From Streptomyces rapamycinicus NRRL 5491 (GTDB lineage: Bacteria; Actinomycetota; Actinomycetes; Streptomycetales; Streptomycetaceae), in NCBI RefSeq assembly GCF_024298965.1, contig NZ_CP085193.1:3720001-3784000 (forward strand): a DNA stretch of 64,000 bases. The letters run 5' to 3'. The notes under the pieces are model-generated. The model was given only the letters and a program-made list of their open reading frames with translations, ran no database searches and had not been told where the DNA came from. Within the stretch, counting starts at the first letter, position 1; every line of letters begins with the position of its first letter. The translations under genes and the position numbers were made by a program. Below, in pieces: positions 55,624 to 59,367 of this stretch.

Positions 55624-57363
55624 ATGGACCCGGTGATCGTCGCCGGGGCGGGCCCGGTCGGCCTGACCCTGGCCCTCGCCCTCGCGCGCCTCGAGGTGCC
55701 CGTCATCCTGCTGGACGAGTCCACGGAAACCGAGGAGAGCCGTCTGGCCCGCACCGTCGTGCTGCGCCCGGACGCCGCCGCCCTGCTGGAGCGACTGGGC
55801 TGCCGGGTCACCGCCCGCACCCGGCCGTGGACCGGATGGCGCACGATGCGGCGGCGACAGCTGGTGCGGCAGGTGCCCCTCACTCCCGGCAGCCTCTTCG
55901 GCGGTCCGCCGTCGCCCGAGCGCGGCACCGGCGGCTGGAACGGCGGCCTTACGGAGGCCATGGAGGCTCCCGACGGTGACGCGCCCTCCTCCGAGGACGA
56001 GTCGGCACCGGTATCGGCGCCCTCACCGCTGCATCTGCCCCAGCACGAGCTCACCCGGGCGCTACGGGGCTCGCTGGCCGCCATGGGCGACGAAGACCTC
56101 GTCCGGATCGTCTCCGGAACCCGGATCGACGACCTGGAGCAGGACGACCACGGAGTCGGGGTGCGCACCCGGGGCGCCCAGGCCACCTGGTGGCGGGGCA
56201 GCTATCTGGTGGGCTGCGACGGGCCGCGATCCACCGTCCGCAAGCTCCTGGGCGTGCGCTTCCCAGGCCGTACGGCGGTGGAGCGGCACGCCGTCGCGGC
56301 GCTGCGCGCCGAACTCCCCTGGCCCGGCGAGGCCCTGCTGCACCGCTCCCCGCCCTGGCGCAGCATCGACGCCGAGGTCACCGCCCGGCCGCTGCCGCAC
56401 GGCCTGTGGCGGGTCGACTGGCTGCTGCCGCCCGGCCGCGACCTTGTCACCCCTGACGCCCTGATGGTGCGGGTGCGCGACACCCTCGCGGGGTGGTGCG
56501 GCGAATCCGAGCCCCCCTATGAGCTGCTGGACACCGGCGTGCACACCGTGCACCACCGGCTCGCGCTGCGCTGGCGCGCCGGGCGCGCCTTCCTGGCCGG
56601 GGACGCCGCCCATCTGCTGGGCGCGCTCGGCACCCAGGGGCTCGAGGAGGGGCTGCGGGACGTCGACAACCTCGCCTGGAAGCTCTCCCTCGCCTGGCAC
56701 CACGGGGCCTCGGACGCCCTGCTCGACAGCTATCAGGCGGAGCGGCGCGGAGCCGTCGGGGCCCGGCTGCGCGCGGCGGACCAGGCGCTGCCGCTGGTGC
56801 GGGCGGCCGGCGGCTGGCACGCGGTTCGGCGCACCGTGCGGCCCGGCGGGGCGCGCGGGCACGACGCGCTGCTCACCGAGGGTCACCTCGGGCGGGGTCC
56901 GCTGGGCGCGCCACCCGTCTACGACCGTTCGCCGCTGGCCCCGGCCGCGCCGCCGGACGGCTCGGTCACGGTGGGCACGGCGCTGGGGGCGCCGGTCGCC
57001 GATGTGCCGGTGACCGCGCCGGACGGTTCGGTCGTACGGCTGCGGGAGCGGCTCGGCCGGGAGCTACTGGTGGTGCTGGTCGCCCCCGGCACCGGGGTGT
57101 GGGACCGCCGCCACTGGATGCGCGCCGGGCTGATGCCGCGGCTGGCGGCGGCCGTCGCGGCGCTGCCCCTGCGCACCGAGTTGCTGGTCACCGAGGCGTA
57201 CCCGGGCGCCCCGGCGCACACCGTGCTGCTGGTGCGGCCGGACGGCCATCTCGCCGCGGCGCTCTCCGGGGTGCGGCCGAGCGCGCTGTACGCGTGCGCG
57301 GACGCGGTCCGGGGCGGGAACGCGGCCAGGGGCGCCCCGGCGGAGGCCAGCGCACGGCGGTAG
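55624..57363 (+). CDS. FAD-dependent aromatic hydroxylase-like monooxygenase
   Basis: A 579-residue flavoprotein of the PHBH/UbiH fold. FAD-binding GAGPVGLTLALALAR at 7-21 with the acidic partner in VILLDES, the NAD(P)H/FAD motif GCDGPRSTVRKLLG and the GD motif FLAGDAAHLLGALGTQGLEEGLRD. A Gly/Glu/Ser-rich insert near 95-135 separates the first two. The C-terminal 150 residues form the thioredoxin-like domain of phenol-hydroxylase relatives (VVRLRERLGRELLVVLVAPG). ATG behind AAAGGA. The substrate (often a polyketide or phenol) is unknown and no biosynthetic cluster surrounds it. Confidence 0.85.
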   Translation: MDPVIVAGAGPVGLTLALALARLEVPVILLDESTETEESRLARTVVLRPDAAALLERLGCRVTARTRPWTGWRTMRRRQLVRQVPLTPGSLFGGPPSPERGTGGWNGGLTEAMEAPDGDAPSSEDESAPVSAPSPLHLPQHELTRALRGSLAAMGDEDLVRIVSGTRIDDLEQDDHGVGVRTRGAQATWWRGSYLVGCDGPRSTVRKLLGVRFPGRTAVERHAVAALRAELPWPGEALLHRSPPWRSIDAEVTARPLPHGLWRVDWLLPPGRDLVTPDALMVRVRDTLAGWCGESEPPYELLDTGVHTVHHRLALRWRAGRAFLAGDAAHLLGALGTQGLEEGLRDVDNLAWKLSLAWHHGASDALLDSYQAERRGAVGARLRAADQALPLVRAAGGWHAVRRTVRPGGARGHDALLTEGHLGRGPLGAPPVYDRSPLAPAAPPDGSVTVGTALGAPVADVPVTAPDGSVVRLRERLGRELLVVLVAPGTGVWDRRHWMRAGLMPRLAAAVAALPLRTELLVTEAYPGAPAHTVLLVRPDGHLAAALSGVRPSALYACADAVRGGNAARGAPAEASARR

Positions 57364-57569
57364 TGCGGGAAGTGCGGGCTCAGCGGGGCGCGCTGGGGAT
57401 GGCGCTCCTGCGCCCGGTCGCGTGTCCGGGCGCAGGAGTGCGTGTCCGGGCGCGGATGGTCGTCCGCGGGTGTGCGTGGTTGTCTCCGGGCGTGCGCTAT
57501 CTGGGCGCGCATCCGGGCCCAAGCCGGTGAGGTTGACCTTCCTTTCCGGCACATGATTCACTTCGCAGC

Positions 57570-57659
57570 GTGACTGACACCTGCTTGCCTCGCTTCTGGC
57601 GGAGGGTCCATCTGGACCTGGTCCGCTACGCGGGCTGTGTCTGTCGTCCGTCCTGTTGA
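57570..57659 (+). CDS. Cysteine-containing leader peptide upstream of cysteine dioxygenase
   Basis: A 29-residue open frame starting GTG: VTDTCLPRFW, then RRVHLDLVRYAGCVCRPSC. It has Cys at 5, 23, 25 and 29, so Cys codons cluster at the very end. The RRVHLDLVRYAGCVCR part fits the short RRxHxDL...C leader peptides seen in front of sulfur-metabolism genes in Streptomyces. It ends 61 nt before the cysteine dioxygenase start and its last codons overlap a sequence complementary to that gene's ribosome site. The ribosome site of the leader itself is weak, so the start is less sure than the end. Confidence 0.65.
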   Translation: MTDTCLPRFWRRVHLDLVRYAGCVCRPSC

Positions 57660-57714
57660 TCCGCCTCTTTCCCGCGCGGCGCGGCCGTGCCCCTTTCGCG
57701 ATCATTCAGGACGG
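57648..57714 (+). promoter_or_regulatory. Predicted RNA switch: anti-Shine-Dalgarno hairpin controlling cysteine dioxygenase
   Basis: CCGTCCTG (57648-57655, inside the leader's last codons) is perfectly complementary to CAGGACGG (57707-57714), which contains the ribosome site AGGACGG of the downstream gene. After a small internal loop GATC (57658-57661) pairs with GATC (57700-57703), extending the stem to 12 bp. A ribosome finishing the leader would cover the left arm and free the ribosome site. Confidence 0.55.
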
Positions 57715-57720
57715 TTCTCT

Positions 57721-58296
57721 GTGCCCGATGTACGCACTTCCCCCTCCAGTCCCGTGCGCCCCTCCGCGGGCCTCGTCACGGACCCCGCATCCGACCCCGT
57801 CGCCCCGCCCAGCGCCGCGGAACTGCTCGACTTCGCCCGCCGGACCGCCGCCGACGCCGAGCTCGTCGCCTCGCTTCCGCTCGATCCGGAGGGCCGCACC
57901 TGGCTGCGCCTCGACGGGCCGGGCGGCAGCGAAGCCTGGCTGATCGGCTGGCCTCCGGGCACCGGTACGGGCTGGCACGACCACGGCGGCTCCCATGGTG
58001 CCTTCGTCTCGGCGGCGGGTGAGCTCAACGAGCAGTCGCTCACCGCGCGTCTGCCCACCGAGGGCTGGAAGACCCTGGAGCTGGCCGACGGTGTGGACCG
58101 CGAGCGGCGGCTGCCCGCCGGGCAGGGCCGGGCCTTCGGACCACATCATGTGCATGAGGTGATCAACCCGTCCGACACCGAGCATGCGGTGTCGGTGCAC
58201 GCCTACTATCCGCCGCTGCCGCTCATGCGGCGCTACAGCCGCACCGGTCAGACGCTGCGGCTGGAGCAGGTCGAGCGGCCCGAGGAGTGGGGATGA
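57721..58296 (+). CDS. cdo: Cysteine dioxygenase
   Basis: A 191-residue cupin iron enzyme oxidising L-cysteine to cysteine sulfinate. Iron ligands appear as HDH in GTGWHDHGGSHGAF and the distal histidines in PHHVHEV; the NEQS region and a Tyr near YYPP supply other active-site residues, and a Cys-Tyr crosslink cysteine is not obvious, as in many bacterial enzymes. GTG start 6 nt after AGGACGG; the frame stays open upstream. It overlaps the rhodanese gene by 4 nt. Likely regulated by the leader peptide just upstream. Confidence 0.92.
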   Translation: MPDVRTSPSSPVRPSAGLVTDPASDPVAPPSAAELLDFARRTAADAELVASLPLDPEGRTWLRLDGPGGSEAWLIGWPPGTGTGWHDHGGSHGAFVSAAGELNEQSLTARLPTEGWKTLELADGVDRERRLPAGQGRAFGPHHVHEVINPSDTEHAVSVHAYYPPLPLMRRYSRTGQTLRLEQVERPEEWG

Positions 58297-58697
58297 ACGC
58301 GATGGGCACGACCAACACGACCAAGCGGAGCGTGGACGAGCTGCTGGCCGAGGCCCGCGAGGAGCTCGACCGGCTGGAGCCCCTCGACGCCGCCGCGGCG
58401 CAGGTCGAGGGCGCACTGCTGGTGGACATCCGGTACGCGGCGCTGCGGGAGCGCGACGGCACCATCCCGGGGGCGCTGATCGTCGAGCGGAACGAGCTGG
58501 AGTGGCGGCTCGACCCGCAGTGCGACCATCGGCTGCCCGAGGCCACCCACCACGATCTGCGGGTCGTGGTGGTGTGCAACGAGGGCTACGCGTCCAGCTT
58601 CGCCGCGGTCTCGCTGCGCCGGCTGGGGCTGGCGCGGGCGACCGATCTGACCGGCGGCTTCCAGGCGTGGCGCGCGGCGGGCCTTCCGGTCGGCTAA
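58293..58697 (+). CDS. Rhodanese-like sulfurtransferase
   Basis: A 134-residue single rhodanese domain. Active-site Cys is in VVVCNEGYASSFA, followed by SLRRLGL, DLTGGFQAWRAAGLPVG, all typical; VDIR and IPGALIVERNEL mark the N-terminal half. ATG overlaps the dioxygenase stop (ATGA) with GAGGAG upstream, so it is translationally coupled. Coupling to cysteine dioxygenase suggests handling of persulfide or sulfite-level sulfur made from cysteine. Confidence 0.92.
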   Translation: MNAMGTTNTTKRSVDELLAEAREELDRLEPLDAAAAQVEGALLVDIRYAALRERDGTIPGALIVERNELEWRLDPQCDHRLPEATHHDLRVVVVCNEGYASSFAAVSLRRLGLARATDLTGGFQAWRAAGLPVG

Positions 58698-58727
58698 CAC
58701 CCCGCGTCTCGGGTGCCGGACGGGCCT

Positions 58728-58758
58728 TGAGCTCTCGGAGGTCGGCCGCCGAGGCTCA
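58728..58758. terminator. Hairpin between convergent rhodanese and recX genes
   Basis: TGAGC and CTCGG pair with CCGAG and GCTCA around a 10-nt loop with one bulged T. It overlaps the recX stop codon. Confidence 0.6.
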
Positions 58759-59367
58759 GAGATCCGGGAGGTGATACTCCAGCAGCTCCGGGTCCTCCCC
58801 CTCCTCCTCCAGCGCGCGCCGCACCACCCGCAGCGCCAGCCCCTCGGAGTAGCCCTTGCGGGCCAGCATCCCGGCGAGACGGCGTATCCGCTTCTCCCGG
58901 TCCAGGCCACGGGTGGCCCTCAGCTTGCGCTCGACCAGCTCGCGCGCGGTCTGCTCCTCCTGGTCGGCGTCGAGCTGTCCCACCGCGTCGTCGATCAGGG
59001 TGGAGTCCACGCCCTTGGTGCGCAGCTCCCGGGCGAGCGCCCGCCGGGCGAGCCCTCGGCCGTGGTGCCGGGACTCCACCCACGCCTCCGCGAACGCCGC
59101 GTCGTCGATCAGACCGACGTCCTCGAACCGGGACAGCACCTCCTGCGCCGCGTCATCGGGGATGCCCCGGGTGCGCAGCGCGTCCGCGAGCTGCTTACGA
59201 GTGCGCGGGGTCCCGGTGAGCAAGCGCAGGCAGATTGCCCGCGCCTGCTCCTCCGGGCCCGGCGGCGGCCCCTGCTCGGCCCTCGACAAGGAGGGGACGC
59301 CGCTGTCCGGACGGTCCGGGCGCTCCGGACGGCCTGGGCCGTCCGGCCATTCGGTCCGCCGTGTCAT
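58756..59367 (-). CDS. recX: RecA modulator RecX
   Basis: A 203-residue helical protein that limits RecA filaments. Three RecX repeats of triple helices can be traced (RAICLRLLTGTPRTRKQLADAL; DDAAFAEAWVESRHHGRGLARRALAREL; RIRRLAGMLARKGYSEGLALRVV, each shown within the limit in parts). The first 40 residues are Pro/Asp/Arg-rich. ATG begins 3 nt after the recA stop codon, making an obvious operon. Confidence 0.94.
   Translation of the reverse strand: MTRRTEWPDGPGRPERPDRPDSGVPSLSRAEQGPPPGPEEQARAICLRLLTGTPRTRKQLADALRTRGIPDDAAQEVLSRFEDVGLIDDAAFAEAWVESRHHGRGLARRALARELRTKGVDSTLIDDAVGQLDADQEEQTARELVERKLRATRGLDREKRIRRLAGMLARKGYSEGLALRVVRRALEEEGEDPELLEYHLPDL

Follow-up and report, generated by a model that had tools for sequence, protein, structure and literature searches.

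Mycobacteria reportedly carry polycysteine short ORFs, leaderless and with their Cys codons near the end, upstream of cysteine genes, as Canestrari and colleagues are said to have described in 2020. Ribosome speed, set by cysteine, reportedly controls the downstream gene in these cases, the suggestion reportedly being that stalling exposes a ribosome site that is otherwise sequestered. In RNA phages, the coat and replicase genes are translationally coupled through ribosome passage. Actinobacterial Cys leaders before cys or cbs operons are described from Mycobacterium, Propionibacterium, and Bifidobacterium in the relevant passages of Seliverstov et al. 2005 (PMC1262725). The sections of Shell et al. 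2015 that describe cysteine leaders make no mention of a sequestering stem, and Table 4 of the S. lividans reannotation (PMC8079986) gives eight leaders, none of them for cdo. Literature searches for cdo together with a leader or attenuation in Streptomyces showed no such title or abstract among the papers listed, subscription papers lying mostly outside their scope. The leader of a cysteine dioxygenase (CDO) gene of Streptomyces rapamycinicus NRRL 5491 analyzed here is best read as an addition to the actinobacterial cysteine translational attenuators, placed before a gene that is thought to be catabolic.

The window, i.e., the whole 64,000-nt stretch that was analyzed, lies in a 12.47-Mb genome, and its features around the leader are collected in Table 1. 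A first-pass annotation of the sequence had placed a 29-codon leader with Cys at codons 23, 25, and 29 before the CDO gene; the ORF and its translation bore this out and added a further Cys at codon 5. The Cys residues near the leader end are separated (C-V-C-R-P-S-C) and form no contiguous run. The leader scored 33.8 bits against the NF042934 profile ('putative leader peptide'; cut-off 27; 32.3 bits in the genome search) and 18 bits against NF042933, the Ms5788A Cys-rich leader family (cut-off 45). The last Cys of the NF042934 profile falls on Cys25, which is likely the sensor codon. The CDO gene was identified by its domain; its catalytic Arg could not be placed with certainty via PDB alignments, and cysteine is its presumed substrate. 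Together with the rhodanese-domain gene behind it, it likely forms one operon. In the promoter-like region upstream of the leader, the anchor columns are T in 79/79 and C in 78/79 loci (see below for the locus set), and the -10-like block is conserved at constant spacing; a consensus scan of this region gave no sigma-70 match. Because the -10-like block stops 7 nt before the leader GTG, the leader mRNA made from this putative promoter may be leaderless.

Table 1 Features of the leader and its downstream genes (positions within the window)
Feature	Position	Strand	Remarks
Promoter-like region: -35 TTGACC (57533-57538), -10-like TTCACT (57557-57562)	57533..57562	+	Conserved blocks at fixed distance
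Leader ORF, 29 codons; GTG 57570, TGA 57657-57659	57570..57659	+	Peptide MTDTCLPRFWRRVHLDLVRYAGCVCRPSC; NCBIfam NF042934
Hairpin P1 inside the leader ORF, codons 10-20	57597..57628	+	Folding and conservation
Cys23 codon	57636..57638	+	TGT in the window; TGC 62, TGT 17 among 79 loci
Cys25 codon	57642..57644	+	TGT 79/79; conserved Cys of the leader family
Anti-Shine-Dalgarno arm CCGTCCTG, last leader codons	57648..57655	+	Complementary to CAGGACGG
Cys29 codon	57654..57656	+	Cys in 73/79 loci; 6/79 without
Lower stem, left side GATCCGC	57658..57664	+	86% of cells paired
Lower stem, right side GCGATC	57698..57703	+	Pairs with GATCCGC
Shine-Dalgarno arm CAGGACGG, over the CDO SD	57707..57714	+	Complementary to CCGTCCTG
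Cysteine dioxygenase gene (CDO_I)	57721..58296	+	PF05995, E 1.9e-44; GTG start 57721, in frame
Rhodanese-domain gene	58293..58697	+	PF00581; start overlaps the CDO 3' end

The complementarity between the last leader codons and the CDO ribosome site that had been proposed for this locus was found as described, with CCGTCCTG facing CAGGACGG. The proposed extension of the stem by GATC/GATC held in part: GATC is present at 57658-57661 and 57700-57703, but GATCCGC/GCGATC is the better pairing for the lower stem. A second hairpin, P1 (TGGCGGA/TCCGCTA plus GGTCC/GGACC), lies within the leader ORF and ends shortly 5' of the Cys codons. Its pair columns are nearly invariant, 11 of its 13 pairs have a mean pairing probability of at least 0.89 (79 loci), and it would account for the rare Arg codon AGG that is found in 71/79 loci. 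An Rfam search of 57300-58800 gave no match at or above the gathering score; two sub-threshold matches (E up to 5) were both unrelated and within CDO.

Related loci were taken from one protein scan of genome contigs, of which the best 80 of at least 535 relatives (the closest including S. iranensis, S. endocoffeicus, and S. violaceusniger) and the window make up 81 loci. A pattern search located the leader, a conserved short ORF that has its Cys codons close to the end, upstream of the gene in 79 of the 81. The other two, L082 and L094, were left out of all 79-locus counts: L082 retains the C-terminal half alone, intact (MDLARYAGCVCRPSC), and L094 has no leader. An [A/C]GGACGG element was present within 320 nt 3' of the leader stop in 79/79 loci, and both arms are still kept over stop-to-start distances of 60 to 265 nt (67/81 loci with an assigned start). 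A separate Streptomyces draw supplied eight further CDO leaders: in six of them a strong pairing with the SD core lies +8 to +12 from the sensor, and in the other two (L122, L130) the SD pairing is weak. Beyond Streptomyces, the leader of L133, an orthologue in a different genus within the order, contains HLDTVRFVGCLCC, uses TGT as the sensor codon, and has CCCGTCC opposite GGACGGG; the other orthologue from that genus (L134) has no such leader in the three frames examined. The leader pattern missed L133 and could miss others among the nine more distant CDO-like loci (L135-L143), and L144 is a fragment that could not be read. Two of these nine (L138, L139) hold a second CDO-like gene, diverged to about 42% identity, that is preceded by a Cys leader of another kind, HHVDFVRVASALC, with TGT. 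Because of this different leader, Cys leaders may have come to precede CDO genes more than once.

Codons with a paired third base are fixed (Pro27 CCG 75/78, Ser28 TCC 74/76), and three other loci have Phe TTC in the Ser28 column, which retains the stem as G-U. Wobble bases that are predicted to be unpaired are variable (Arg26 CGT 0.65, Cys29 TGC 0.60, Tyr20 TAT 0.52). Synonymous randomisation of a single locus is a weak test (at the window locus, 341/2000 left arms were as good and 96/1000 P1 versions as stable), and therefore codon fixation was controlled over loci, using CDO coding sequences from 78 of the 79 loci (one was dropped). In these comparisons, which carry no correction for phylogeny, no Pro (0/11), Ser (0/5), or Arg (0/9) column within CDO matched the codon fixation of leader Pro27, Ser28, and Arg11/12/19, 0.95 fixation over all residues was reached by 9/15 leader columns vs 12/86 CDO columns, and the cognate arm duplexes had a mean of -21.7 vs -20.7 when shuffled, a mean reached by none of 20000 permutations. 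The codons of Ala21 (GCG, 0.99) and Gly22 (GGC, 0.96) at 57630-57635 are also nearly fixed though they lie outside both named helices.

Pairing was counted in a 75-row alignment (L050, L059, L061, and L086 were dropped because their arms lie too far apart), and standard pairs made up 92.8% of cells in the named structure, which was derived from these same sequences, vs 25-44% in slid controls. The upper stem is nearly invariant, with no double changes, which is conservation and not covariation. Double changes occur in four of the six lower-stem pairs, in seven cells, counts that were reached by 1 and 0 of 500 shuffles, respectively; L032 gives a clear compensatory example (CAC/GTG vs CGC/GCG in the window), and L025 has the G-U form. 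The slid controls gave up to four double-change pairs and six cells, and their covariation scores (0.044, 0.041) exceeded that of the named structure (0.035). Covariation was thus rejected as proof of the stem, the counts being nearly or fully matched by the controls. RNAalifold on the full alignment predicted only five upper-stem pairs, with no covariation. A search of relatives for the leader and a covarying stem, as had been suggested at the outset, confirmed the leader and the conservation of the stem, whereas covariation did not go beyond slid controls; conservation and folding are what support an mRNA structure between the leader and the CDO ribosome site.

We regard it as very probable that the leader is a cysteine translational attenuator, irrespective of sign, and hold with moderate confidence that it is one of the actinobacterial polycysteine/NF042934 type that turns CDO on at cysteine shortage. 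In the absence of a ribosome close to the end of the leader, its final codons would pair with the CDO SD, and CDO would go untranslated. Scarce charged tRNA-Cys would slow the ribosome at UGU Cys25 or Cys29, where it would occupy the left arm and free the SD. The output of CDO, and probably of the rhodanese, would then rise once cysteine becomes scarce or oxidised, the sign expected for the assimilation genes behind sibling leaders. The ORF, the stem, and the sensor codon are supported by comparison between loci; leaderless transcription, stalling, translational-level control, and the sign are what we infer. These odds draw on conservation, codon fixation, and family context. Conservation, codon fixation, and folding also support the initial proposal that the Cys codons of a leader peptide are placed at an anti-SD arm.

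Ribosome positions were modelled by folding with a blocked footprint (79 loci; 3' edges +9, +11, +13, and +15; the same trend in 12 loci). Mean SD-core accessibility was 0.02 in free RNA, 0.023-0.035 with Cys23 in the A site, and 0.02, 0.09, 0.23, and 0.26 for the four edges, respectively, with Cys25 in the A site; it was 0.17-0.27 at codon 26 and 0.26-0.29 from Pro27 through the stop. The predicted opening, only about 0.26, counts against the attenuator reading. These accessibilities put Cys23 in a closed zone, Cys25 on the edge, and Cys29 in the open zone, so that a stall at Cys29, or at the edge codon Cys25, would open rather than close the stem. The earlier expectation that stalling at Cys23 or Cys25 leaves the stem closed agrees with the model for Cys23, but not for Cys25, which lies at the edge. 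The folding model supports a conserved stem that ribosome position could open. In a traffic simulation of leader ribosomes with assumed rates (12 settings; first Cys rate 8), slow decoding of all three Cys codons gave more opening in 8/12 settings, was flat in 1/12, and gave less in 3/12, all three with initiation at 1 per second; some settings were non-monotonic. With Cys29 removed and opening from codon 26, slow Cys decoding gave less opening in 12/12 settings.

If Cys23 acts as a brake and Cys25 and Cys29 as openers, the output at CDO could be two-phase or opposite, low in severe starvation and with a peak at mild limitation or plenty. We consider this unlikely, though the non-monotonic traffic settings would suit it; if true, one conserved sensor would serve both cysteine assimilation and breakdown. 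The first-pass annotation had proposed an inverted sign, in which ribosomes that finish the leader open the stem and CDO is on with plentiful cysteine, whereas a stall at Cys23 or Cys25 keeps the stem closed. This sign suits a catabolic gene, and it is favoured by the closed stem at Cys23 (79-locus means), by the traffic model in all 12 settings without Cys29 and in 3/12 settings with it, and by the six loci that lack Cys29. However, Cys29 is kept in the other 73, inside the open zone.

The same genome contains nine NF042934 matches above the cut-off, including the CDO leader, and, up to E 10, a further 14 under it. Downstream of the sibling leaders are genes for a ThiS-like (CysO-like) protein with a cysteine-synthase-like (CysM-like) ORF, sulfite reductase, SsuA, SsuC, SsuE, a sulfurtransferase, an SDF symporter, a flavin reductase, and luciferase-like monooxygenases. 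The sensor codon was TGT in 37/37 readable leaders (39 examined: L001-L009, L011, and L104-L132; nine of CDO type), and Cys codons in 39 long high-GC3 ORFs of the window comprise 137 TGC and 32 TGT (n = 169). Many sibling leaders have a single Cys near the end, and L010 and L012, both below the NF042934 cut-off, have no Cys at the sensor position. Reading the sign from the arm geometry of the siblings failed, the pairing positions being inconsistent across the 39 leaders. Among seven leaders of LLM monooxygenase type (a type assigned by HMM for L004 alone and otherwise by N-terminal similarity), four have the SD pairing immediately 3' of the sensor, as CDO does, which counts against the inverted sign. 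In L002, the SD pairs upstream of the sensor with one start choice and not with the alternative start; the remaining siblings pair elsewhere or weakly, or their start is unassigned. L002 also has a short second ORF between the leader and the LLM monooxygenase, located after an SD-like stretch for which pairing to leader bases 5' of the Cys codon is predicted.

Our literature searches found no direct cysteine-response data for the CDO gene. In S. coelicolor, SCO5772, named a putative cysteine dioxygenase in the relevant passage of PMC3087709, is 8.0x up in H2O2, with cysM at 8.5x, cysI at 9.3x, and cysA at 8.3x (PMC4991794, Table 1). The co-induced set in that source comprises SCO5772, SCO6094-6102, SCO4164-4165, and SCO2910-2912. 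In the sections of PMC4991794 concerned, the effect is at the mRNA level and is credited to a two-component system, in whose mutant no gene was up-regulated. By annotation, the H2O2-induced genes are counterparts of, and overlap with, the leader-bearing genes of the present genome, and SCO5772 presumably carries the Cys leader, if the 79/81 loci can be extrapolated. Part of the S. coelicolor peroxide response may stem from a lack of cysteine that ribosomes sense. In S. lividans, the 'methionine' leader upstream of metNIQ has the C-terminal sequence CMCRRMCAF (PMC8079986, Table 4), and S. coelicolor metNIQ rises with cys genes in H2O2 (PMC4991794); this may be a cysteine leader. The S. venezuelae homologue of SCO5772 is described as GlnR-dependent and induced by nitrogen starvation in the passages of PMC3087709 that treat it. 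In Streptomyces SCUT-3, cdo1 and cdo2 are given as 50.2x and 8.3x up in feather medium (PMC7181669, in part), a rise that might be explained either by cysteine supply, if both carry a comparable leader, or by nitrogen control.

The feather-medium induction favours the inverted sign, and it stands against induction by starvation, as do the closed zone at Cys23 and the three falling traffic settings; a cysteine-degrading enzyme induced by cysteine shortage would also be odd physiology. Nevertheless, starvation-induced CDO is the more likely of the two signs. The claim that CDO is on with plentiful cysteine, opposite to assimilation genes, finds no support in the open-zone position of Cys29 and the 8/12 rising settings, and it is made less likely by the sibling TGT leaders that precede assimilation genes and by the co-induction of SCO5772 with such genes. 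We therefore judge the inverted sign to be unlikely.

A further alternative, that general translational coupling or RxHxDLxR nascent-peptide arrest gates CDO and that cysteine supply is not the physiological signal, appears quite improbable. The H-x-D-x-x-R peptide motif is common to leaders with quite different codons, and the second hairpin within the ORF would also suit it, but Cys25 and its TGT are kept in 79/79 CDO leaders, as is TGT in every readable leader. Transcription attenuation (intrinsic or Rho-dependent) between the leader and CDO, in place of SD sequestration, is highly improbable, since an intrinsic terminator scan of 57450-57780 gave no terminator-like site of the kind that a classical transcription attenuator would have, and the conserved structure terminates on the SD, although the H2O2 effect in the cited sections of PMC4991794 is at the mRNA level and positions +7 to +13 past the leader stop are C/T-rich.

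With the leader read as a cysteine translational attenuator, the Streptomyces cysteine-leader set gains a gene usually called catabolic, with an SD-sequestering stem that is unusually clean and conserved. Should CDO rise at cysteine shortage, what it does in Streptomyces (sulfur salvage, sulfite supply, oxidative stress) would have to be reconsidered; a rise with cysteine would mean that identical parts yield the opposite output. Compared to the leaders in the passages of PMC1262725, the CDO leader is likewise short, has Cys codons close to its stop, and lacks a clear terminator, whereas the targets there are cys/cbs genes and the SD-sequestering stem described here goes unmentioned in those passages. 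It resembles NF042934 leaders in scoring above the cut-off and in the match of the last profile Cys to Cys25, and it differs from NF042933 (Ms5788A; 18 vs 45 bits). With the mycobacterial polycysteine sORFs, as portrayed in passages that cite them, it shares a short ORF, near-end Cys codons, and proposed ribosome-controlled access to the SD; it differs in its cysteine dioxygenase target, in Cys codons that are spaced and not in a run, and in the second hairpin within the ORF. As in the RNA phage coat-replicase system, the anti-SD arm lies within the upstream reading frame; in contrast to that system, amino-acid-sensing codons would be located at the arm.
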